Notes under the pieces: model-generated
What the model was told of the DNA's origin: nothing
The model's input: only the letters and a program-made list of their open reading frames with translations
Databases searched by the model: none
Shown: positions 2,891 through 50,069 of the stretch, piece by piece
Position numbering within the stretch: the first letter of the stretch is position 1
How the letters are laid out: each line of letters starts with the position of its first letter
Made by a program: the position numbers and the translations under genes
Assembly: GCA_947857085.1 (NCBI GenBank)
Contig: CANUDF010000004.1
Location: 1 to 59,475, forward strand
Direction: 5' to 3'
Origin: Candidatus Gastranaerophilales bacterium
GTDB lineage: Bacteria; Cyanobacteriota; Vampirovibrionia; Gastranaerophilales; Gastranaerophilaceae
Length of the DNA stretch: 59,475 nt

Positions 2891-3687
2891 TTACTTTTTA
2901 CCAAAAAGCCAGCTGTAATAATAACATTTTCCTGACGGGCACCAGCGTTCTTTTGTACTAATATCATATTCATATGTAGGTCTAATGTTAACCGGAGCAT
3001 CCGGCAAATTTATTGTCCCCTTGTTATGAGGTTTCATTGAAAACGGAAACCTGTCTTTTCCCAGTTCATTAGGAGCTTTATGTCCGTTTATATCAACAAT
3101 AAACACATTTTCATTAGAATTTCCCATACTAAAGGCATAAGTCGACCAAGCTCTGCCTGAAGAATCGACAAAAGAGTCTACATAGCGCGGACAATTACTT
3201 GAATTACCTTTAAAATCCGCATTGCCGCCTTGACCTTGTTCTGCATCAATACATTGCCAGCAGGGTGTGTCATCAGCCCCATCAAAACATGTTTTTGTGA
3301 CTTTCATATAATTTGTAAGAAGCCTGAAATTTTTTCTGTAAGATGTGGATACACCGGATACTATATTACCGTCATCATCTATATTATCCCATGTAATCTG
3401 ATTTAAGACTCCATCATTTAAAAGCATTTGAAAAGCATTATTTACATCGCTAAAAGCCTTTTTATAAGCCGCTTTATACAAGACTTCCTGATATTTTGAA
3501 ACCAATGCAGGTATTGTAATGGCAGCTACAACACCTATAATAGCCAGTGTAATCAAAACTTCTGCTAACGTAAACCCGGACTTATAATTCTTCATACCAG
3601 AATTATAGTTAATATCAGTAAATTTGTCAATTAGCAAGGAGAAAGCTAATTTTTTGCCCCCCCCCCGACATGTAATGATCTTTTCAT
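2891..3687 (-). CDS. Prepilin-like protein with poly-G leader, out of frame in this sequence
   Basis: The body encodes a prepilin: cleavage motif G|FTLAEV, a hydrophobic helix (LITLAIIGVVAAITIPALV), then a cysteine-containing ectodomain with the family motif DINGHKAPNELGKDRF. Upstream lies a second, stronger start: ATG at 3685-3687 with an AAGGAG site and an extended -10 promoter. That start reads MKRSLHV, then 10 G (3657-3666), then stops (TAG) after three more codons. Inserting one G (11) puts it in frame with the prepilin without an intervening stop. The downstream reading frame is open back to the G run. An inner ATG (3593-3595) gives MKNYKSG|FTLAEV and has no ribosome site but sits 6 bases after a perfect promoter. 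Function inferred: pilus or secretion-system pseudopilin, substrate unknown. Confidence 0.8.
3602..3630 (-). promoter_or_regulatory. Perfect sigma70-type promoter inside the prepilin leader region
   Basis: On the minus strand TTGACA (3625-3630) and TATAAT (3602-3607) are separated by 17 bases. Six bases later comes the inner ATG (3595-3593), so the expected transcript would start at the A of the ATG (leaderless). The same arrangement with related sequence occurs at 6221-6258. Confidence 0.6.
3657..3666 (-). repeat. G10 tract in prepilin leader
   Basis: Ten C on the plus strand, that is ten G on the coding strand, 21 bases after the upstream ATG. Eleven G would restore the prepilin reading frame. 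This is the kind of homopolymer that slips during replication. Confidence 0.9.
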
Positions 3688-6143: not shown

Positions 6144-7317
6144 ATGAGCTTAAAAGCACACTATGACTACATTTCCACTAAGGGGGGGGGGCACTAGCAG
6201 CTTAACCTCCGGTTCGTCATTTGACAAATTTTATCACTGTAACTATAATTTGAATATGGAGACTTATAGTTATGGAGGTAAGATGAATCACAAAAAATCA
6301 CGTGCCGCATTCACACTTGCTGAAGTACTTATTACTTTAGCAATAATTGGTGTTGTTGCTGCATTAACTATTCCTACACTGGTACAAAATTATCAAACAC
6401 GTGCTTGGAAAACAGCTTCTGATGTATTTAAAATTAAGCTGGAAGAAGCTTTAAGAGTTATGAACACACAGCAAACATTAGCAGGTTATCGTAACACTGA
6501 AGATTTCGTTAATGAGCTTAGTAATCATTTTAAAATTACTAAAATCTGTAAAAATGATGATTTAACTTCTTGTTTTCCTGATAAAGTTTACTGGGATGAT
6601 GAAGAAATTGATGTTGCAAATCTAAAAACTGCAGATAAATTTGGCCAAGACGACTGGGACACTGATGTAGTTGGCGTTCAGTTTGCCAACGGTACTACAG
6701 GATTGATTGCATACAATCCTACAGAATGTAGTCAAGACCCATACAGTAACCAGGTTAATGTAACTAAGTGTCTTGCTATATTATACGATACATCTGGTTA
6801 TAAAAATCCTAACACTAACGGTAAGGATTTAAATTCAATCAACGTTGACAGTCTTGGCAATAGCAAATGTGCTATTGAAACAGGTGGAGTATGTTTTTCA
6901 AAAGTATTTGAGCCGACTCCGTTAACAAAGGCAGAATGTGAAGCCCAAAAAACTGACTTAGGAATTAAAGAATGTTACTACGAAAGTGACTATTGGGCAG
7001 GAGCAATGGCAGAATGTAAAAGCAAAGGTCAAAGCTTACCTTCATTAGAGCAGTTAGCAACGCTTGCAAACTATCTTTACAATACAGACAAAGTAACAGC
7101 TACAGATGACGTATTAGGCTTAACAATGGATGAGAGCAGAATGGCTGAACTCGGTGCTTCTTACAATGGCAGTTACTTTCGTGTCTGGTCCTCTGTCGAG
7201 TACTCCAAGAGCGGCGCGTACTATCGCACGTTCGCCCAGTCTGATACGTACTACCGCAGCTACAGCGGCAACACCCGGGACAGCAGCTCCCACGTGGGAG
7301 TTTGTGTAGGTGGCTAA
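6144..7317 (+). CDS. Prepilin-like protein with poly-G leader and DGR-like variable C-terminus, out of frame in this sequence
   Basis: The upstream start (ATG 6144, GGAGGA site, good promoter) reads MSLKAHYDYISTK, then into 10 G (6182-6191), and stops at TAG immediately after. Nine or twelve G would put it in frame with the prepilin. An inner ATG at 6256 lies 6 bases after a perfect promoter, and a further ATG at 6283 has its own GGAGG site and gives MNHKKSRAA|FTLAEV, so expression may not depend wholly on the tract. The prepilin helix is followed by an ectodomain that ends in a C-type-lectin/FGE-like segment (QSLPSLEQLATLANYLY, later FRVWSSVEYS...VCVGG). The last 45 or so codons are GC-rich with mostly NNC/NNT codons, as in variable regions written by DGRs. 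Likely a surface-displayed, hypervariable binding protein (inferred). Confidence 0.8.
6182..6191 (+). repeat. G10 tract in prepilin leader
   Basis: Ten G, 38 bases after the upstream ATG. Nine or twelve G would join the upstream start to the prepilin frame. Confidence 0.9.
6221..6258 (+). promoter_or_regulatory. Perfect sigma70-type promoter inside the prepilin leader region
   Basis: TTGACA (6221-6226), 17 bases, TATAAT (6244-6249), 6 bases, ATG (6256-6258) in frame with the prepilin. The -35 to -10 region is related in sequence to that at 3602-3630 (both have TTGACAAATTT...TAACTATAATT). Confidence 0.6.
7171..7317 (+). other. Candidate DGR variable region (VR)
   Basis: The last part of the prepilin gene switches from AT-rich to visibly GC-rich sequence. 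It encodes aromatic- and Ser-rich residues spaced as in C-type-lectin variable regions (FRVWSSVEYS, AYYRTF, TYYRSYSG) and a conserved end VGVCVGG. Codons are dominated by NNC/NNT, which is what adenine mutagenesis of AAC/AAT template codons leaves. A hairpin lies 34 bases after the stop. No reverse transcriptase or template repeat was found in the window, so the retroelement would act in trans. Confidence 0.6.
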
Positions 7318-16968: not shown

Positions 16969-17733
16969 ATGAAGAAGGGATTTACTTTAGCGGAAGTGTT
17001 GATAACACTTGCAATTATAGGAGTTGTGGCAGCCATGACAATTCCGACACTGGTAAGTAATATTTCAAGGAAACAACATTTAACGGCATTTAAGAAAAAA
17101 TATGCGGAAATAATAGAGGCAGTAAAATTATCAACAATAGAAAATCAGGAACCGTCAAAATGGAATTACGACTTAGAAGATGGTGAATTTTTTGCAACCT
17201 ACCTTGCTCCATATTTAAAAGTCACACGCTGCGATGACTGCTGGTTGAGTTATGAACTTAAAGGCTTCTGGTTTGAAGCTCCGGCATTTGCAGCTGGTGA
17301 AAAATGTCCGGATGACGAAAGCGAACATGATTGCTACAACAATCCCAACTCTTGTGAATGCAATGCCTGCAAAAACGGGTATAGACCAAACTTAGACTGG
17401 TGTATAGAATGGTTGAATTCATTAGATAATACTCCCCCAGACGAACCTGAAATAACATATTCTTTAGTAGACGGTACGAGTTTGGGTCTGATAAAGAAAG
17501 CTGATTTCTTTTATCTATATTTAGATATAAATGGCGCTAAATCACCAAACACATATGGTGCTGACAGATTTGTATTGACAGTTTCTGGCAGCAGTGTACT
17601 ACCTTATGGTTATGGTATTGAAGATCTAACCTCTGGAGAATACGGCTGTTCAACAGAGGGCAACGGCATGTACTGCGGAGCAGTAATAATGCAGAATAAT
17701 TGGGATTATCCAAACGATTATCCGAAACTTTAA
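16969..17733 (+). CDS. Prepilin-like protein without poly-G tract
   Basis: The 254-residue protein has the shortest possible leader, MKKG|FTLAEVLITL, then the pilin helix and a cysteine-rich ectodomain (CDDC, CECNACKNG, several more Cys) ending in the family motifs DINGAKSPNTYGADRF and GNGMYCGAVIM...YPKL. The start has an AAGGAG site. It lacks a G tract, so it would be always translatable, in contrast to four relatives in the window, and it instead has a candidate operator. It is most similar to the gene truncated at the left edge. Function in a type IV pilus or type II-like system is inferred. Confidence 0.85.
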   Translation: MKKGFTLAEVLITLAIIGVVAAMTIPTLVSNISRKQHLTAFKKKYAEIIEAVKLSTIENQEPSKWNYDLEDGEFFATYLAPYLKVTRCDDCWLSYELKGFWFEAPAFAAGEKCPDDESEHDCYNNPNSCECNACKNGYRPNLDWCIEWLNSLDNTPPDEPEITYSLVDGTSLGLIKKADFFYLYLDINGAKSPNTYGADRFVLTVSGSSVLPYGYGIEDLTSGEYGCSTEGNGMYCGAVIMQNNWDYPNDYPKL

Positions 17734-34652: not shown

Positions 34653-35340
34653 TTATTTAATTTTTAGCGGATAATCATCTTTAAATTCCCAGTTATCTAA
34701 AAACAAAAGCTGTGAACAATGATTTCTACGTGTTTCATTACACAATTTTTTAAGATTTTCTCTGTCTTCCATATCCTTAGTAATTTCTTCCTCATCCTCT
34801 ATAATATCTCCGGTCCAGTTATAAGCCGTAAATTTACCGGTGTCCTTGTACATTAAAAAATAAAATGTTCTTATACCCATATCATCTTCTTTATCAGAGT
34901 CTCCAATTGCATATATTATATCGAGAGCAGAGCCTGAATGCATTCTCATATGTGATCCGTCTTGAAAATAAACATAAAACCAATCTCCGCCAATTTCAGT
35001 ACGGGTTACAGTTTTAAAATAAGGGGCAAAATATTTATTCCAAAATTCTTCGGCACTTTTAGGTTTACCACTTGGATAATCCCAATATTCAGCAGGTTCA
35101 TTATCAATTTCAGATAAAGCTATTGCATTCTGCATTGTGGAATAAAATCTCTTTAATCTAACAGAATATTCTTTCAATTTGTAATTTGTAACAAGTGTAG
35201 GCATAGTCATTGCCGCAACAACACCGATAATTCCTAAGGTAATAAGCACCTCTGCCAATGTAAAACCTTCATTACGGCGAAAACCCTTGTTTTTCCTACT
35301 TAGAGGAGACGCCCCCCCCCCCGATTCCGCATTTTTCCAT
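34653..35340 (-). CDS. Prepilin-like protein with poly-G leader, out of frame in this sequence
   Basis: The start at ATG 35338-35340 has a GGAGG site that lies inside the last codons of ilvB, 4 bases after the ilvB stop. It reads MEKCGI, then 11 G (35312-35322), then VSSK and a TAG. With 10 or 13 G the frame runs through without a stop into RRNEG|FTLAEVLITLGIIGVVAAMTMPTLV. In that state the leader would be MEKCGIGGGASPLSRKNKG plus FRRNEG. The ectodomain is short (about 175 residues) and acidic with one C-terminal Cys pair. Unlike two relatives there is no inner promoter or ATG, so with 11 G it should be off. Apparent co-transcription with ilvB. Confidence 0.8.
35312..35322 (-). repeat. G11 tract in prepilin leader
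   Basis: Eleven C on the plus strand, 18 bases after the start codon on the coding strand. Losing one G restores the prepilin frame. Confidence 0.9.
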
Positions 35341-35344
35341 TTTT

Positions 35345-36982
35345 TTATCCTCCATATTCTAGAACCTCCATAGGTTCAACTACAAACTCAATTAATACAG
35401 TTCCCTGCTCTTGAAAAGCATTCTTAAGCGCAGGAATAATATGTTCTTTACTATTAACTCTACATGCCTTAACACCATAACTTTCAGCTAAACGAACAAA
35501 ATCAGGATTAGAAATCTTTGTTTCACTATATCTCTGATTAAATTGACACTCTTGAAGCTGGCGCACCATACCGAGATATCCATTATTTAAAATTAATATT
35601 TTAACAGGCAGGTTATAGTCCATACAAGTTGCCAGCTCCTGCATGTTCATTTGAAAAGAGCCGTCGCCCGTAATGCAGACAACAGGATTAGAACCGTCAG
35701 CAACAGCCGCACCAATAGCAGCAGGAAACCCAAACCCCATTGTTCCAGAACCGCCGGATGTCAAAAATTTCTTTGGCTTATTAAAATGAAGATTTTGAGC
35801 TGCCCAGAGCTGGTGCTGGCCAACTTCTGTTGTTACAACAATATCTTTGTCTTTTATAAAGGTTTGTAATTCCTGCATAACTTCAAATGAGTGAAGCATG
35901 TTTGTTTTACGTTTTCTTATACGATTATTAGCTTTCAATTTATCAATTTTCATGCCCCAATCCACACAAGAAATATATTTACCTGTCTTTAGTTCCGCGA
36001 CCATATCAGCCAATATTACTTTTGAATCACCTACCAAAGACTCAAAGGCAGGTACGATTTTTGAAATTTCTTTATCATTTATATCAAGCTGTATAAATTT
36101 TTTATTGAGCGATCCGTCGGCAAAACAACATGTAATTCTGTCATTAAATCTTGCTCCGATAGAAAAAATTAAATCGCTCTCTCTTAATAGCTGATTAGCA
36201 GAATAATCACCAAAAATTCCAACCATGCCTAAATAGTTTTTATTTTCGTAAGGATAAACACCTAACCCCATCATTGTACAAACAACAGGAATATTTAACA
36301 TATTTGCAAGTTCCGTCAATTCTTTATAGGCATTAACAGAACCGCCTCCGGCAACAATTACCGGATGCACGGCAGAACAAAGCTCTTTCAATGCCGGTTT
36401 AACGTCAACATGGCATACCTCTTGCATGATTTGTCCTATATTTCCCGAAAACTCTGTTTCATCTGATAAAATATTTTTTGCAAGATCCACCACTACAGGG
36501 CCTTTTTTACCAGACATAGCAGTATTAAATGCATCAGACAAAGTTCTTTCCAAATCATTAACGTCTGTAACCTGATAAACTTTTTTGGTACAAGATTTTG
36601 TTATACTGCATATATCTGCTTCCTGAAAAGCATCTTTACCTATCAAATTAGATAAAACTTGTCCGGTTAAAATAACAAGGGGAAACCCGTCGAGATATGC
36701 ATTTACAATCCCTGTAACAGTATTGGTTGCACCGGGCCCTGAGGTAACAAGCACAACTCCAGGCTTACCTGTCACTCTTGCATAGCCTTCTGCGGCATGA
36801 ACAGCAGCTTGTTCGTGACGGACAAGAATATGTTGAATTTCATTTTGTAAATACAATTCATCATATATTTTTAGCACAATACCGCCGGGGTATCCGAAAA
36901 TTTTTTCAACTCCGAATTTTTTAAGGGTCTCAATTACTATTTTAGCTCCCGTCAAGGTCTTTGTGCCGACTAAATTCTTCAT
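35345..36982 (-). CDS. ilvB: Acetolactate synthase large subunit
   Basis: The 545-residue ThDP enzyme makes acetolactate for branched-chain amino acids. Landmarks are GYPGGIVLKIYDEL and the catalytic Glu in RHEQAAVHAAEGYAR at the N-terminus, and the ThDP motif GDGSFQMNMQELATC...NNGYLGM near the C-terminus. No small subunit (ilvN) is adjacent. TAAAAT lies 6 bases before the ATG, so the mRNA may be leaderless. A prepilin gene begins 4 bases after the stop. IlvC lies at 56721-57743. Confidence 0.95.
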   Translation of the reverse strand: MKNLVGTKTLTGAKIVIETLKKFGVEKIFGYPGGIVLKIYDELYLQNEIQHILVRHEQAAVHAAEGYARVTGKPGVVLVTSGPGATNTVTGIVNAYLDGFPLVILTGQVLSNLIGKDAFQEADICSITKSCTKKVYQVTDVNDLERTLSDAFNTAMSGKKGPVVVDLAKNILSDETEFSGNIGQIMQEVCHVDVKPALKELCSAVHPVIVAGGGSVNAYKELTELANMLNIPVVCTMMGLGVYPYENKNYLGMVGIFGDYSANQLLRESDLIFSIGARFNDRITCCFADGSLNKKFIQLDINDKEISKIVPAFESLVGDSKVILADMVAELKTGKYISCVDWGMKIDKLKANNRIRKRKTNMLHSFEVMQELQTFIKDKDIVVTTEVGQHQLWAAQNLHFNKPKKFLTSGGSGTMGFGFPAAIGAAVADGSNPVVCITGDGSFQMNMQELATCMDYNLPVKILILNNGYLGMVRQLQECQFNQRYSETKISNPDFVRLAESYGVKACRVNSKEHIIPALKNAFQEQGTVLIEFVVEPMEVLEYGG

Positions 36983-42901: not shown

Positions 42902-44893
42902 TTATAGCTTGCTAAAATCTGCTAATCTTTCATATTTTTTCTTTAGCATTGTTAATAAAGATTGTCTATTTTTCTTAACATTTTCGTCTTTATCCATAAC
43001 AAGTACATCAGCGAAAAACTTCTCTACTGCAGGATTTATAGACTGTAAAGCATCTAAATACGCGCCGTATTTGAAGTTTTCATTTACAGAATTTATAGCA
43101 TCGTATAACATGCCCTCTGCCGGTTCTTTAAATAAATTTGTATCAACAGGAGCTGTACTGTCTTGTTTTAAAATTCTTATTACACGATTTGCACTTTCAA
43201 GCATTTGAGGACAATTCAGAGCAGATATTATTTTTACTCTTTCAACATAGTCTATTATGTCATATAAAGGATTTTTTACTGCTGCACAAGCTTCCAGAAC
43301 ACTTTTCTTGTATGTATCGGAAAGCATAATTATTAAACGCTGGATGAAAAATTCATTAACCTCTTCAACGCAATCTTTTTGTACAGGAAGCTGTTTAACA
43401 GCATGTTCGATATATTTTGCAAGGTCTAATTTTAAACCCGCATCAAATATTGTTCTCATAATACCAAGTGCAGCACGTCTGACACCTAAAGGATCAGATG
43501 AGCCGGTCGGTTTTTTACCGTCAGCAAAGACAGCAGATATTGTATCAAGCTTATCAGCTATACCGACGATTTGTCCCTCAATACCTTTCGCTGTTTCACT
43601 TTCGGCATTTAAAGGGAAATAGTGTTCTTTTATACCCTCTGCAACTTTTTCATCTTCATTAGAAACTCTTGCATAGTCCGCACCAATAAATCCTTGGAGC
43701 TCTGTAAATTCAAATACAAGACTTGTAGTTAAATCAGCTTTACACAAAAGTGCTGTGCGTTCTATCGTTGAGGCAGTATGTCCCAAATCAGATGCAATAG
43801 CTTTAGAAAGAGCTATAACGCGCTGAGTTTTGTCATAAACCGATCCCATACCTTTTTGGAAAGTAACGCCTTTTAAATCTTCAACATAATCAGCAAGCGG
43901 CTTTTTAGTATCTTCATTAAAGAAGAAAACTGCATCATCAAGACGTGCTTTAATTACCCTTACATTTCCGGCTTTGATATTTGCAAACTCATCACCAATA
44001 TAGTTTGTCATTGTAATAAATTTGTTAATAAGCTTGCCGTCTTTGTATAACGCAAAATATCTTTGATGAACAGCCATAACCGTAACAGTAACTTCTTCAG
44101 GAATTTCAAGATACTTAGGATCAAATTCACATACAGCAGCAACCGGATATTCCGTAATAAAAGTAACCTCGTCTAATAAATCATCTGTATATCTTACGGT
44201 TGCACCGAGCTTATCAGCTTCTGCTTTTGCTTTATCAATAATAATCTGTTTTCTTTCGTTTTGGTCTACGATAACACATGCGTTTCTCATTGTTTCAACA
44301 TAATCATCGGGGTGGCCAATCATTACCTTTTGCTGTGCAAATCTGTGACCGCGTGAGTACAACGAAGATTCTTTATCTATAATTTTAATTTTAACTTCTT
44401 CTTTATCTAAGACTGAAACAATCCATCTTATAGGACGGGAAAATTTTTCATCATTATATCCCCAGCGCATAAAGTGAGAACCTTGAAGTTTCATAACAAT
44501 TGCCGGAACATTCTGTTGTAAAAGTTCGACAATTGATTTACCTTTAATTACAATTTTTGCGTGGATATAATCATTTTCAATATAGATATCTTCCGGCTTT
44601 AAACCATTTTTATTTAAAAAGCCTTCACCAGCTTTTGTAAGATTTCCGTTTTCATCATAAGCAACCTTTTTAATAGGTCCTTTAACAATCTTTTCTTCAT
44701 CAGGACTTTTTTGTGACAAACCGCCTGCAATAACAGCCAAACGACGCGGAGTTGCATAAACATCAACTTTATCATAATCTATTTTGTTTGCTTGCAAAAA
44801 GTTTTCAAATCCTGCTCTTAACTGTTCTATTGCTGATGGTATAAATCTATAAGGTAATTCTTCCGTTCCAATTTCCAATAAATATTTGCTCAT
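42902..44893 (-). CDS. glyS: Glycyl-tRNA synthetase beta subunit
   Basis: The 663-residue protein begins MSKYLLEIGTEELPYRFIP, the hallmark of GlyS, then has TPRRLAV, KGPIKKVAYDENGNLTKA, and HFMRWGYNDEKFSRPIRW. It is the tRNA-binding half of the alpha2beta2 enzyme; glyQ is not in the window. Start at ATG 44891-44893 with AAAGGA upstream; a TTTACA-17-TATAAT promoter is visible before it. Confidence 0.95.
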   Translation of the reverse strand: MSKYLLEIGTEELPYRFIPSAIEQLRAGFENFLQANKIDYDKVDVYATPRRLAVIAGGLSQKSPDEEKIVKGPIKKVAYDENGNLTKAGEGFLNKNGLKPEDIYIENDYIHAKIVIKGKSIVELLQQNVPAIVMKLQGSHFMRWGYNDEKFSRPIRWIVSVLDKEEVKIKIIDKESSLYSRGHRFAQQKVMIGHPDDYVETMRNACVIVDQNERKQIIIDKAKAEADKLGATVRYTDDLLDEVTFITEYPVAAVCEFDPKYLEIPEEVTVTVMAVHQRYFALYKDGKLINKFITMTNYIGDEFANIKAGNVRVIKARLDDAVFFFNEDTKKPLADYVEDLKGVTFQKGMGSVYDKTQRVIALSKAIASDLGHTASTIERTALLCKADLTTSLVFEFTELQGFIGADYARVSNEDEKVAEGIKEHYFPLNAESETAKGIEGQIVGIADKLDTISAVFADGKKPTGSSDPLGVRRAALGIMRTIFDAGLKLDLAKYIEHAVKQLPVQKDCVEEVNEFFIQRLIIMLSDTYKKSVLEACAAVKNPLYDIIDYVERVKIISALNCPQMLESANRVIRILKQDSTAPVDTNLFKEPAEGMLYDAINSVNENFKYGAYLDALQSINPAVEKFFADVLVMDKDENVKKNRQSLLTMLKKKYERLADFSKL

Positions 44894-44954
44894 ATCTCGT
44901 CCTTTTCTAGTTTTAAGAAAATTATAAACAAAACAAAAATTAATGTAAATAAAA

Positions 44955-44999
44955 AGAAACACCGCAGAAATATCTGCGGTGGAACATCCTGGGGGGATG
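44955..44999 (-). terminator. Terminator after the prepilin/S74 gene
   Basis: CACCGCAG (44960-44967) pairs with CTGCGGTG (44974-44981), followed on the minus strand by T-rich sequence. A second small hairpin ACATCC/GGATGT adjoins the stop codon. Confidence 0.75.
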
Positions 45000-46439
45000 T
45001 TAATTAATTAATTTTTCTAACTTTTCTATTCTTTCTTTTAATTCTTTGTTTTCGTTTTCAAGTTTTTTAATTTTATTATCATGTTCTGTAACTTTAAACA
45101 AAACCTTTTTAACTTCCGAAACAAGATTTTGGACTATTATATCAAGCTGCTTTATAGCATTTATCATTGAATAAAACATTTCATCTTTTCTTATTAAAAG
45201 ATATCCGGCATCATCTTTTTCGACAGAATTAGGAAATATTTTCTGTAAATCCTGTGCAATAACACCGACTTGAGGCTTTTTATTTTTATCATTTTTGAAC
45301 GTAAAATCAAAAACTTCAAGCTTTTTTACCTGCTCAAGACCTGCTTTATTTTTACCTTCTATATTCTTTAGACGTTTATCTGAATAATCATAAAATGCTT
45401 TAGCCTCAGCCCAGGAAGTGGACGGTATACATTGAGGATACCAGTTAGGGCAAGTCATCTTATTACTTATTGATGCTATATTATGTCCGTCTTTATCGTT
45501 TTGTCCTCCATTAAAAGCAAGCCTTGCTATTTCAAATCTGTCTTCTGAGTTAGTGGGTCGTGCATGAAACCATAAGTTTCCCATAACCAATAAATCACCT
45601 GGAATAATAACTTTACCATCCAAACCTCCAAGCATAATCATTGGTTTACTTGTATCAGTATAAAATGAATCTGTGGTAAAAGCCGTGTTAGAATAACCAA
45701 CACAGGTTTTATAACTGCCTGTTGTAATGTTTTTACAAATCTGACTTGTTCCAATTTGAGTATTATAGTCACCGGTGTTAGACGAAAGAGCATAGTCACC
45801 AATACCTATGTTATAATTACCAGCTGCACTATACATTGCTTGATTGCCAATAGCAATATTATTTGTACCTGTAGAAAGTGACTTCAAAGCACCTGAACCA
45901 ACGGCTGTATTATAACCACCACTTGTAAGAGACTGCAATGCCTGAAATCCCAAAGCGGTATTATTTGTACCGCTCAATGTTGTAAGATTTAAGGCAGATA
46001 ACCCTATACCCGTATTAGCATAAGATTTTGAGGGATTATGCACACCAGATGTAGAACTTCCTAAAAAAAGATTATTTTTATCCAAATGCAGCTGGCCAAC
46101 CCTGTCATTAGAAGATAACAAACTAATTTGTGCTTGAGTTTTATTCGCATTAATTAACAATTTAGAATTTATATCATTGCTTGACTTACTATTCTTGCCA
46201 ATCATGGCTGTTTGTCCAGATGCTAATCCATAATAAATATCGCTGTTATTTGACGCATAACGCCATGGACTGTTTAAATCAACTGTTTTACGCTTGGTCA
46301 TCAGTGGTGCAAATGCTGCTAATATTATTGTTAATATCAGCATTACTACCATCATTTCAGCTAGCGTAAACCCTAGCCTGGAGCAGTTTAGTTTTGCCCC
46401 CCCCCCGTCTGCTACTTGTTTTTTTAAATAGAAATTCAT
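45000..46439 (-). CDS. Prepilin-like fibre protein with S74 chaperone domain; poly-G leader in frame
   Basis: The 479-residue protein starts at ATG 46437-46439 (AAGGAG upstream) as MNFYLKKQVAD, then GGG from 10 G (46397-46406), AKLNCSRLG and the prepilin cleavage site and helix FTLAEMMVVMLILTIILAAF. The ectodomain has head-type repeats found in trimeric fibres (NTALGFQALQSL, NTAVGSGALKSL, NIAIGNQAMYS, NIGIGDYALSS) and a C-terminal intramolecular chaperone of peptidase S74 type with the Ser-Lys site SDKRLKNI, ending in a coiled coil. S74 domains are known from phage tail spikes; a pilin N-terminus on such a fibre is unusual. It is the only poly-G prepilin here in the on frame. Confidence 0.85.
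   Translation of the reverse strand: MNFYLKKQVADGGGAKLNCSRLGFTLAEMMVVMLILTIILAAFAPLMTKRKTVDLNSPWRYASNNSDIYYGLASGQTAMIGKNSKSSNDINSKLLINANKTQAQISLLSSNDRVGQLHLDKNNLFLGSSTSGVHNPSKSYANTGIGLSALNLTTLSGTNNTALGFQALQSLTSGGYNTAVGSGALKSLSTGTNNIAIGNQAMYSAAGNYNIGIGDYALSSNTGDYNTQIGTSQICKNITTGSYKTCVGYSNTAFTTDSFYTDTSKPMIMLGGLDGKVIIPGDLLVMGNLWFHARPTNSEDRFEIARLAFNGGQNDKDGHNIASISNKMTCPNWYPQCIPSTSWAEAKAFYDYSDKRLKNIEGKNKAGLEQVKKLEVFDFTFKNDKNKKPQVGVIAQDLQKIFPNSVEKDDAGYLLIRKDEMFYSMINAIKQLDIIVQNLVSEVKKVLFKVTEHDNKIKKLENENKELKERIEKLEKLIN
46397..46406 (-). repeat. G10 tract in prepilin leader, in frame
   Basis: Ten C on the plus strand, 33 bases after the start codon on the coding strand; codes for Gly-Gly-Gly plus the first base of an Ala codon. 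Any change not a multiple of three would turn the gene off. Confidence 0.9.
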
Positions 46440-46464
46440 TTTCTTGTAACTCCTTATAATTTTA

Positions 46465-46493
46465 ATATTAGTAAATGATTTAAAACATGTCAA
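46465..46493 (-). promoter_or_regulatory. Promoter of the prepilin/S74 gene
   Basis: On the minus strand TTGACA (46488-46493), 17 bases, TAATAT (46465-46470), just behind the murG stop. The gene thus has its own promoter despite lying behind the mur cluster. Confidence 0.65.
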
Positions 46494-46497
46494 TTTA

Positions 46498-47619
46498 TTA
46501 ATTAATATCCCTTAATTGTTTAACAATTCTGTTCACCCCGTCATATTTTGCTAATTTTAAAGAATTTGTCTGTAGTTTTTCAAGCATATCCTTATTTTTT
46601 ATTAGTTCATTAATTAAATCAAGAAGTTTTTGTGATGTAACTTCTGCATCTTCAAGATAAATTCCGGCAGAGTTTTCTTCTATATACCGAGCATTTTTAC
46701 GTTGATGGTCAGCTGCGGCATGAGGATAAGGAATATAAATCGAAGCAATACCTGAAGCACAAAGCTCAGATATACTTAAAGAACCCGCCCTTGACACAGC
46801 AATATCCGAAGCTTTTAAAACAGAAACCATATCTTCAAAATAAGGTTTAACAATAATATTTTTATCAGCCTCATATTCCGGATAAAGCATTTTCAGGTGT
46901 TCTACGACCTTATCAAAATTTTTCTTCCCTGTTTGAAATATTACTTGAATATCATAATCTTTTGATAAAGTTTTTAAAATTCCGACGACCGCAGTATTAA
47001 TCGATTTAGCCCCCTGTGAGCCGCCCATAATACACAATGTCAATTTATCAGTCAATCCTAAATCTTTTCTTGCAATCTCCTTTGACAAAGTTTTAAATGT
47101 TGTACGTATCGGGTTGCCGTTTATAAAACAATTTTCATTATCTATATAATTCTGTGCACATTCAAAAGCAAGTGAAACACTGGAAGCATAAGGCGCTAGT
47201 TTTCGCGTTACAAGACCGGGCTTAGCATCACAGTCGTGCAAAACAAAAGGAACTTTTAAAATTTTGGCAGCGATTAATACAGGAGCTGATACATACCCCC
47301 CTGTACCAAAAATAACGTCCGGTTTGTATTTTATAATATAAAAAGCACTTTTTATAACTGCAAAAGAAAGTCTTATTCCCCACCCGATAAGTTCAACACC
47401 TAATTTTCGAGGCATTCCTGAGATATTTACCGGTAAAAAATCATAACCCTTTTTTATTACAATATCAAATTCCAAATTATCCGGATTCCCAATATAATAA
47501 ATAGTATTTCCGCCCTCGCCATTCAAATAATCAGCAACAGCTACAGCTGGATATATATGCCCTCCGGTACCGCCTCCGGTTACAAAATATTTGGTATTCT
47601 CAGATTTCACTTTCTGCAT
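46498..47619 (-). CDS. murG: UDP-N-acetylglucosamine transferase MurG
   Basis: The 373-residue inner-face membrane-bound GT28 glycosyltransferase forms lipid II. It has GGGTGGHIYPAVAVADYL (about 15-32), VFGTGGYVSAPVLIAAK, GGSQGAKSIN and SRAGSLSISELCASG near the UDP site. It overlaps ftsW by 20 bases at the end of the murF-mraY-murD-ftsW-murG cluster. Confidence 0.95.
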   Translation of the reverse strand: MQKVKSENTKYFVTGGGTGGHIYPAVAVADYLNGEGGNTIYYIGNPDNLEFDIVIKKGYDFLPVNISGMPRKLGVELIGWGIRLSFAVIKSAFYIIKYKPDVIFGTGGYVSAPVLIAAKILKVPFVLHDCDAKPGLVTRKLAPYASSVSLAFECAQNYIDNENCFINGNPIRTTFKTLSKEIARKDLGLTDKLTLCIMGGSQGAKSINTAVVGILKTLSKDYDIQVIFQTGKKNFDKVVEHLKMLYPEYEADKNIIVKPYFEDMVSVLKASDIAVSRAGSLSISELCASGIASIYIPYPHAAADHQRKNARYIEENSAGIYLEDAEVTSQKLLDLINELIKNKDMLEKLQTNSLKLAKYDGVNRIVKQLRDIN

Positions 47620-48778
47620 TCCTTATTTTCTTAATTCTTTTCTTTGAAATATTCAAAAGAATTCCAACCATCCACAATGACACTATAAGTGACGAACCGC
47701 CGTAACTTATAAACGGAAGCGGAACACCTGTTGTAGGCAGGAATGAACTTGCGACACTCATATTCAAAAATGCCTGAAATCCTATTGAAAAAGTCAATCC
47801 GACAGCCAGCAGTTTTCCGTACATATCAGGACACCTGCCTGCAATCAAAAATCCGCGCTGAACAAATGTAAAAAATAAACCTATTACAAGAAGACAGCCA
47901 ATAAAGCCCATTTCTTCCGCTATAACCGCAAAAATAAAATCCGTATGACATTCAGGCAGATAGTATAGTTTTTGAATAGACCCACCGTAACCTACTCCGC
48001 TAAAGCCGCCTGAGGCAAATGCAATTAATGATTGGATAATATTATATCCTGCACCTTGAGGATCCGTTTCAGGATGTCTCCAAATTCTTAAACGCTGAAG
48101 CTGATAAGGTTTTATTATAGTAGTCGCCGCAATAACAATTGCAGTAACACCGGCTGTAACCGCACTTAAAAATAACTTCATTGAACCGCCTGCACACAAA
48201 AACATAACAACGGAAGTTGATAAAAGCAAAATAACCATACTAAGGTTTGGCTGTGCAAAAATAAAGGCAATCATTGCCAATATAGGCAAAAATGCAAATA
48301 CCCATTTACTCTGGTCAAAAAGATTTGCATCATTTTTAAATGCTGACGCGAGAAGCATAACTACCGCTGGTTTGGCAAATTCAGAAGGCTGCAATTGAAA
48401 CCCTGCAATATTTATCCATCTTTTGGCTCCGTTTACAGTTACCCCTAAAGGCGTAAAATCCACTAATATCAAAGCTAAAATTATTATAATCATAAAAACT
48501 GTATTCCACTGGGATAATTTTTTATAATCATAGTTGGAAAAAAACTTTAAACCGATAAAACCCACAATAAAAGCCAGAACTTGCTTTATTAAAAATTGTG
48601 CAGGATTTCCGCCTTCATCAAGACATTTTGGCGCTGTAGCGGAAAATATTGCCAGAAATCCAATTATAACAAGAAAAGCAACCACTACTAACAGTGTTTT
48701 ATCAGGTGATGAAACAATAATACTTTGAAAAGGGCGTTTTCTTCCGGGAGTTCTATTTTCAGATCTTTGATAAGACAT
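47600..48778 (-). CDS. ftsW: Lipid II glycosyltransferase FtsW
   Basis: The SEDS-family protein (about 392 residues) has ten hydrophobic segments and signature parts AGFQLQPSEFAKPAVVMLLAS, QPNLSMVILL, YQLQRLRIWRHPETDPQGAGYN, AEEMGFIGCL and PLPFISYGGSSL. It polymerises septal glycan strands. Start chosen at ATG 48776-48778 (MSYQRSENR), 20 bases inside the murD end. Confidence 0.95.
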   Translation of the reverse strand: MSYQRSENRTPGRKRPFQSIIVSSPDKTLLVVVAFLVIIGFLAIFSATAPKCLDEGGNPAQFLIKQVLAFIVGFIGLKFFSNYDYKKLSQWNTVFMIIIILALILVDFTPLGVTVNGAKRWINIAGFQLQPSEFAKPAVVMLLASAFKNDANLFDQSKWVFAFLPILAMIAFIFAQPNLSMVILLLSTSVVMFLCAGGSMKLFLSAVTAGVTAIVIAATTIIKPYQLQRLRIWRHPETDPQGAGYNIIQSLIAFASGGFSGVGYGGSIQKLYYLPECHTDFIFAVIAEEMGFIGCLLVIGLFFTFVQRGFLIAGRCPDMYGKLLAVGLTFSIGFQAFLNMSVASSFLPTTGVPLPFISYGGSSLIVSLWMVGILLNISKKRIKKIRNAESEI

Positions 48779-50069
48779 AATCTTTAAATACTTCCCCCCT
48801 TTCTTCGTAACTTTTAAACATATCAAAACTTGCACATGCCGGTGATAATAAAACTACATCAGGTTCAAGTTCACAGGCTTTATCAATTGCACTCTGCAAG
48901 GTAACTTCTTTAATTATATTATTAAATCCTGCATTTTCCAGATTTTTTTCAAATCTTTCAGATGCTTCACCTATTAGAATTACAGCTTTAATATATTTTT
49001 TTACTTCATCACAAAATTCTTTTAAACTTGTATTTTTATCACGTCCGCCTGCAATAAGGACAACATCTTTGTTATTGAATGATTTAATTGCAACAATAGC
49101 AGCCTCAGGATTTGTAGCTTTAGAATCATTGTAAAAAGCCATACTGTCTTTTTCTGCAATTAACTCCAGTCTATGAGCCGGAGACTTGAACTCTTTAATT
49201 GCATTAATTATTAAATCATCTTCTATACCTGCAAGTTTTGCACATATTATTGCACACTCAACATTCTGATAGTTATGCTCACCTACAAGAGGACAGTCAG
49301 AAACAGGCATTACAAACTCAACTACACCGTCATTCTCGTAGATGAATTCATCATTTTTGATATAGCAGGCATTGCCGCTTTTCCTTTCCCCGAAATAAAA
49401 AACTTTTCCATCTGCCTCAAAATCTTTTAATCTTTCATCGCAAGCATTTAAAACTGAATATTCAGGAGCCTGGGGTGACTTAAAAATTTTTGCCTTTGCT
49501 GCAAAATAATTTTCAATTCCCTGATGCCAATCTATATGATCAGGTGTAAAATTAGTCCATACAGATATGAAAGGTGTTAATGTAGGACTCATTGCAATCT
49601 GATAAGAACTCATTTCGCAAACATAATAATCAAGCTTATCATCTGCAAAATCACATGGAGGCTGGCCAATGTTTCCACACGCCTTTGCCTTGAATTTCTT
49701 TTCAAATATATGAGCAGTCAAAGCTGTGGTTGTAGTTTTTCCGTTTGTACCTGTTACTGCTATGAAAGGAGTATCACTCATCCTATAAGCAAGTTCTAAT
49801 TCTGATATAACAGGGATATTTTTAAGCCTTAAAAGTTCTATTATAACGCTATGCGGAGGTATCCCGGGACTTGTAACTGCAAATTCGGAATTTTGAACAA
49901 ATTCAAAAGAATGACCGCCTGTCTCTATATGTATACCTGAATTTTCAAGTTCAGCAGGTATTTCTATATTTTTACTTTCCGTAAGATAAACATCATAACC
50001 GTGTTTTTTTAGAAATTTTGCTGCTGCAATACCGCTTTTTGATAACCCGAGAACCAGAACCTTACCCAT
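48759..50069 (-). CDS. murD: UDP-N-acetylmuramoylalanine--D-glutamate ligase
   Basis: The 436-residue cytosolic ligase has a Rossmann-like N-terminus (VLGLSKSGIAAAKFL), ATP-binding GTNGKTTTTALTAH, HIDWHQGIENYF-type central residues and NDSKATNPEA. It adds D-Glu to UDP-MurNAc-Ala. It is 1 base after mraY. Confidence 0.96.
   Translation of the reverse strand: MGKVLVLGLSKSGIAAAKFLKKHGYDVYLTESKNIEIPAELENSGIHIETGGHSFEFVQNSEFAVTSPGIPPHSVIIELLRLKNIPVISELELAYRMSDTPFIAVTGTNGKTTTTALTAHIFEKKFKAKACGNIGQPPCDFADDKLDYYVCEMSSYQIAMSPTLTPFISVWTNFTPDHIDWHQGIENYFAAKAKIFKSPQAPEYSVLNACDERLKDFEADGKVFYFGERKSGNACYIKNDEFIYENDGVVEFVMPVSDCPLVGEHNYQNVECAIICAKLAGIEDDLIINAIKEFKSPAHRLELIAEKDSMAFYNDSKATNPEAAIVAIKSFNNKDVVLIAGGRDKNTSLKEFCDEVKKYIKAVILIGEASERFEKNLENAGFNNIIKEVTLQSAIDKACELEPDVVLLSPACASFDMFKSYEERGEVFKDYVLSKI

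Follow-up and report, generated by a model that had tools for sequence, protein, structure and literature searches.

Frame-setting poly-G tracts in prepilin leaders of a gut Gastranaerophilales bacterium: candidate phase variation of pilins and of a pilin-anchored S74 fibre

Introduction

The switching of genes by intragenic poly-G tracts is well known, and in Neisseria the phase-variable surface genes that carry such tracts include pilC, pgl, opc and others. Gut Gastranaerophilales, by comparison, are poorly known. Poly-G tracts of at least nine bases number about 15-19 per genome in N. meningitidis, N. gonorrhoeae and N. lactamica, where they fall in several gene classes, and are fewer in other species (PMC5953494).

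The genes described here resemble those of Neisseria in that a homopolymer of 8-15 G lies in or near the start of the coding sequence, where it would switch the translation of surface proteins, but the genome that carries them has at least 70 tracts, nearly all of them ahead of the cleavage site in the leader of a prepilin. Their products share with type IV pilins and pseudopilins (N_methyl, TIGR02532) the motif G/FTLxE (slash, cleavage site), Glu5 and a hydrophobic helix, and the machine is encoded; in contrast to those pilins, the leaders are long, variable and tract-bearing, and the mature parts differ (DUF6613-like, S74 fibre). One of them carries an S74 chaperone which, like those of phage endosialidase, phage fibres and the MYRF ICA domain, has the S-D-x-R-x-K motif and gives significant Pfam and structure-sequence matches, but which is here encoded in a bacterial chromosome and fused to a prepilin anchor. 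Its short N-T-A-x-G head repeats recall the trimeric autotransporter adhesins YadA and CbpF. However, the fold match to CbpF is weak and non-significant (E 1.9), an N-terminal prepilin anchor and an S74 chaperone take the place of the YadA-type barrel, and we rejected an identity as a trimeric autotransporter because the C-terminus consists of the S74 domain and a long helix, with no YadA-type match.

In the open-access papers searched we found none linking Gastranaerophilales with phase variation and no relevant paper joining S74 or endosialidase domains with pilins or prepilins. A paper on a termite-gut melainabacterium reports pilA, B, C, D and T, and we found no mention of sequence repeats in it. 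What appears to be new here is not the poly-G principle, which is known, but the unusual scale of the intragenic poly-G switching that we propose and the S74-prepilin fibre anchor.

Results

The fibre gene lies in a stretch of 59,475 nucleotides (the window) from the 1.75-Mb genome of a Candidatus Gastranaerophilales bacterium, and its features, all on the minus strand, are as follows.

45003..46439, minus: prepilin-S74 fibre gene, 479 aa, from the ATG at 46439 to the stop codon at 45000-45002 (open reading frame, Pfam matches, 25 aligned homologs)
46450..46455, minus: ribosome-binding site AAGGAG (direct reading)
46397..46406, minus: 10-G tract within the translated prepilin leader, in frame here (sequence)
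46314..46379, minus: prepilin cleavage/methylation motif and N-terminal helix (N_methyl match)
45645..46022, minus: head repeats of NTALG/NTAVG/NIAIG type, residues ~140-265 (sequence, alignment, PHROG, model strands)
45222..45383, minus: Peptidase_S74 intramolecular chaperone (Pfam; MYRF ICA and phage fibre matches)
45381-45383, minus: codon of Ser353, before which self-cleavage is predicted, within the Peptidase_S74 part
45006..45188, minus: long C-terminal helix, probably a coiled coil, residues 418-478 (AlphaFold model)

The encoded protein begins with the leader MNFYLKKQVADGGGAKLNCSRLG, continues after the cleavage site with FTLAEMMVVMLILT, and then runs through the NTALGF/NTAVGS/NIAIGN repeats and SDKRLKNI to the long C-terminal helix. 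This architecture, apart from the C-terminal helix, had been proposed in an earlier sequence-only reading, and profile searches and alignment bear out each of its parts. At the N-terminus, N_methyl matches with E 2e-5 (24.4 bits, cut-off 21.2) and TIGR02532 scores 21.3 against 16.3; the leader MNFYLKKQVADGGGAKLNCSRLG is followed by FTLAEMM, with the predicted cut after Gly23, a mature end F24-T-L-A-E28 that supplies Glu5, and then a hydrophobic helix, as in type IV prepilins. The head repeats align among homologs over residues ~140-265. An E of 1.8e-13, with 51 bits where the cut-off is 22, answers the concern that the S74 match might not be significant. S353-D354-x-R356-L357-K358-N359 and the prepilin motif are both invariant across all 25 aligned homologs, and this includes Ser353 and Lys358, the serine and the lysine at S+5 that we take from family knowledge to be the self-cleavage residues of S74 domains.

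The best solved sequence relative is the MYRF ICA domain, followed by a phage tail fibre, and MYRF also came out on top in a fold search (E 2.6e-3, probability 1.00). The AlphaFold monomer is of moderate quality (pLDDT 64), with a helix at 26-47, a head of short strands, the S74 region and a helix at 418-478. PHROG profiles of tail fibres and virion structural proteins match the head and S74 parts (structural-protein matches at 138-261) and, because of these matches, the C-terminal module may be of phage origin. Taken as a whole, the protein is best explained as a surface fibre that is exported as a prepilin. Its trimerisation, self-cleavage and adhesion are what family knowledge would predict, the model being that of a monomer, and it would be associated with a pilus. 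The sequence-only reading was thus right as to the domains, and its surface fibre with prepilin export is the likeliest interpretation, the machine being encoded; but it had overlooked the poly-G tract in the leader, and with it the genome-wide set of tract-bearing prepilins to which the gene belongs.

In the region 42902-50069 of the window (minus strand), the fibre gene is flanked by open reading frames read by eye as murG, with ftsW and murD upstream, and glyS. It starts 58 bp after murG and therefore may share transcription with the cell-wall genes. Scanning the window for Rfam families and tRNAs gave no match.

The tract of the fibre gene sits between the Shine-Dalgarno (SD)-preceded ATG and the cleavage site, and direct reading of the leader from the tract to that site found no in-frame ATG, GTG or TTG. 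Since no start codon follows the tract, the number of Gs sets the prepilin frame, as expected of a contingency locus, in which the length of a long simple repeat sets the reading frame. In this assembly the gene is in frame (ON). An 83-bp block that takes in the tract and the beginning of the helix is identical in a paralog on another contig (C3), with flanks diverged on both sides; this points to movement of leader cassettes. Read by hand, the paralog is out of frame from its likely GTG start.

Similar tracts precede prepilins throughout the genome, and the window holds three further examples together with a prepilin gene that serves as an internal comparison.

3657..3666, minus: leader tract of 10 G; prepilin gene 2891-3687, OFF as assembled
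6182..6191, plus: leader tract of 10 G; prepilin gene 6144-7317, OFF as assembled
35312..35322, minus: leader tract of 11 G; prepilin gene 34653-35355, OFF as assembled
16969..17733, plus: prepilin gene with no tract and a short leader (MKK, then GFTLAE)

A profile search yielded 93 N_methyl matches in the genome, and from the stretches around these matches and around some listed tracts we read about 90 distinct prepilin genes. The leaders of 65 carry a tract of G8-15 or C9-10, located 5 to 14 codons past the assigned start. When frames were scored from SD-preceded starts, 11 of these genes were ON, 53 OFF and 1 unclear, the start codons being assigned by an automatic SD score, such that individual ON/OFF calls may be wrong. 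ON genes make up less than one third (binomial P 0.003, with genes treated as independent). Although 53 are OFF, every one of the 64 scored genes keeps an open frame between its tract and the cleavage site. Among leaders of at least 60 nt, the prepilin frame is open in 46 of 46 and each of the other frames is closed in 46 of 46, the leaders falling into a few related classes and so not being independent; in other genera, however, tracts are placed in the same way in leaders of unrelated sequence.

The association also holds when one begins from the tracts. We examined 76 distinct tracts of at least nine bases, which account for 131 of the 155 nine-mers of the genome, and 64 of them precede an open prepilin. 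Six further tracts were classed as prepilin leader modules truncated or split at a contig end or close to it, and one of the six is the second end of a locus already counted; between 64 and 70 of the 76 long tracts belong to prepilins. OFF states are uniform within leader classes (for instance, twenty G9 and twelve C9 leaders, all OFF), which would be expected of recently copied cassettes but speaks against free switching.

As to the mature parts, those of the window prepilins at 16978-17730 and 34656-35267 match DUF6613 (E 6e-12 and 4e-7). One cluster holds 26 prepilins of the genome with mature parts mostly of 330-358 aa; no known domain was found in the one window member of it that was scanned. 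The fold of one 336-aa pilin was predicted at low confidence, with no meaningful structural match, and a scan of viral contigs with one window pilin found no relative. RNA folding of three leaders gave no consistent structure (fibre leader, z -0.79); one other leader folds at z -2.59, with the G tract paired to CUCC. A repeat-like dispersed sequence, TCATTGCGA...TCGCAATC, is read in frame in four prepilin leaders (L063, L066 and L067 among them).

Beyond this genome, the SD-ATG-tract pattern was found in 15 of 15 genomes of the same genus. Across the order, 383 genomes yielded 100 with the pattern, spread over 15 of 52 genera and confined to one family; the reversed pattern gave scattered matches only. 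Same-genus genomes have 16-114 N_methyl matches each. A genome of another family of the order (G028) has 88 prepilin matches, and the SD-ATG-poly-G pattern was not found in it. Tract length differs between copies with identical upstream flanks of 35-50 nt in three other genomes (G10/G11/G12 in G018, G9/G11 in G188 and G10/G11 in G005), and two overlapping contig ends of the present genome (C36 and C25) have G12 and G11, these being differences between paralog copies and contig ends in assemblies.

As to the prepilin-S74 fusion, four S74 genes are present in the genome, three with a prepilin signal and the fourth ending at a contig end just inside the helix. A search for the same domain combination, suggested in the sequence-only reading, recovered it in 73 genomes of a phylum-wide sample of 292, and the matches listed are all Gastranaerophilales. 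The mis-assembly that the reading had named as a possible flaw is rejected because, in addition to the four paralogs here, the same fusion occurs in many independent assemblies. S74 genes occur in further families of the order, with three close together in families f6 and f7, and an alignment search confirmed the prepilin-S74 type in one f6 genome. Since the tract pattern was not found in those other S74-bearing families, the fusion appears to be older than the tract switch.

Discussion

From the domains, the tract position, the reading frames and their recurrence across the genome and the family, all of which can be read in the sequence, we propose that the repertoire of pilins and fibres probably undergoes frameshift phase variation, with export by one type IV pilus machine. 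Such a machine is encoded: one secretin stands beside PilB and a PilC-like open reading frame in a single cluster, and the genome has further T2SSE-type ATPases and one prepilin peptidase. In the fibre gene, the ribosome would start upstream of the ten Gs, and tract length would set the output; we infer that slipped-strand mispairing in vivo adds or removes a G and thereby takes the prepilin frame out or in. Prepilin peptidase would then cut the fibre precursor after LG, with the helix holding the protein in the inner membrane, and the S74 domain would trimerise the head and cleave itself before Ser353. As a minor or tip pilin, the fibre would be brought to the cell surface by the single machine and act there as an adhesin. 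Because about 65 prepilin genes share the tract design, cells of one clone would display differing sets of pilins and fibres.

A constant mechanism at the RNA level, either transcriptional slippage or programmed ribosomal frameshifting, might instead produce a fixed in-frame fraction without any DNA switching. Most leaders of a class do share one out-of-frame register, one base off, as such a device would require, but we consider this account unlikely, given that tract lengths range from 8 to 15, that classes require different shifts, that tract length varies among copies whose flanks are identical, and that ON genes exist, for which no shift is needed. Sequencing or assembly error at homopolymers would explain the tract lengths and ON/OFF calls differently, with the real genes all in frame. 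Homopolymers do attract errors, and a tract marks the end of many contigs; error cannot, however, have placed tracts at the same spot of the same gene class in 100 genomes, and could affect only single length calls, which leaves this a distinctly improbable explanation of the whole.

The 53 of 64 genes that are out of frame in the assembly, and the genes cut by contig ends, could also be taken for pseudogenes decaying after amplification of pilin genes. We find this very improbable, since lesions are confined to the tract, and the frame beyond it and mature ORFs of 200-360 aa are open. We find it just as improbable that the S74 protein is a tail fibre, domesticated or of a prophage, which carries its signal by chance and stands outside the pilin system: the PHROG matches over its head and S74 parts would suit a tail fibre, but throughout the order the fusion retains its prepilin end, three S74 copies lie close together in f6 and f7, and the neighbours (murD, ftsW, murG and glyS, by eye) are not phage genes. 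On the grounds of the conserved prepilin end and these neighbours, we rejected an identity as a prophage gene.

Frameshift phase variation of a prepilin repertoire thus remains our preferred reading, and the presence of the same candidate switch in about 65 of some 90 pilin genes suggests a very large and so far undescribed surface repertoire. More broadly, we lean toward the view that one gut family of Gastranaerophilales operates a dedicated switchboard in which frameshifts turn dozens of prepilins and pilin-anchored S74 fibres on and off, among the largest known contingency systems based on a single protein class, assembled and spread through mobile leader cassettes and giving ever-changing pilus compositions. 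If the roughly 65 prepilins are frame-switched, then pilus make-up, adhesion and escape from phage and antibody would be subject to chance switching, and a non-photosynthetic cyanobacterial lineage would rank among the most phase-variable bacteria. OFF genes would be mis-started or truncated in automatic annotation, and therefore the switch may have been overlooked so far. The S74-prepilin fusion would be a new way of anchoring a fibre that is predicted to mature itself.

Some of the genes may not need the tract. In 21 of the 65 leaders a promoter-like element, in frame and open, lies between tract and cleavage site; in most it reads TTGAC(A/T)-17-TATAAT, often perfectly, and a palindrome and an ATG usually follow. 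Two examples lie in the window.

6192-6306, plus: promoter-like leader element
3578-3656, minus: promoter-like leader element

With such an element inside the leader and an ATG after it, these 21 genes may have a second, tract-independent start; the leader of the fibre gene has no such element.

Three further 10-G tracts lie on another contig (C7; loci L090 and L091), near open reading frames resembling sugar isomerases and acetyltransferases, and their position suggests that glycan synthesis may also be phase-variable.
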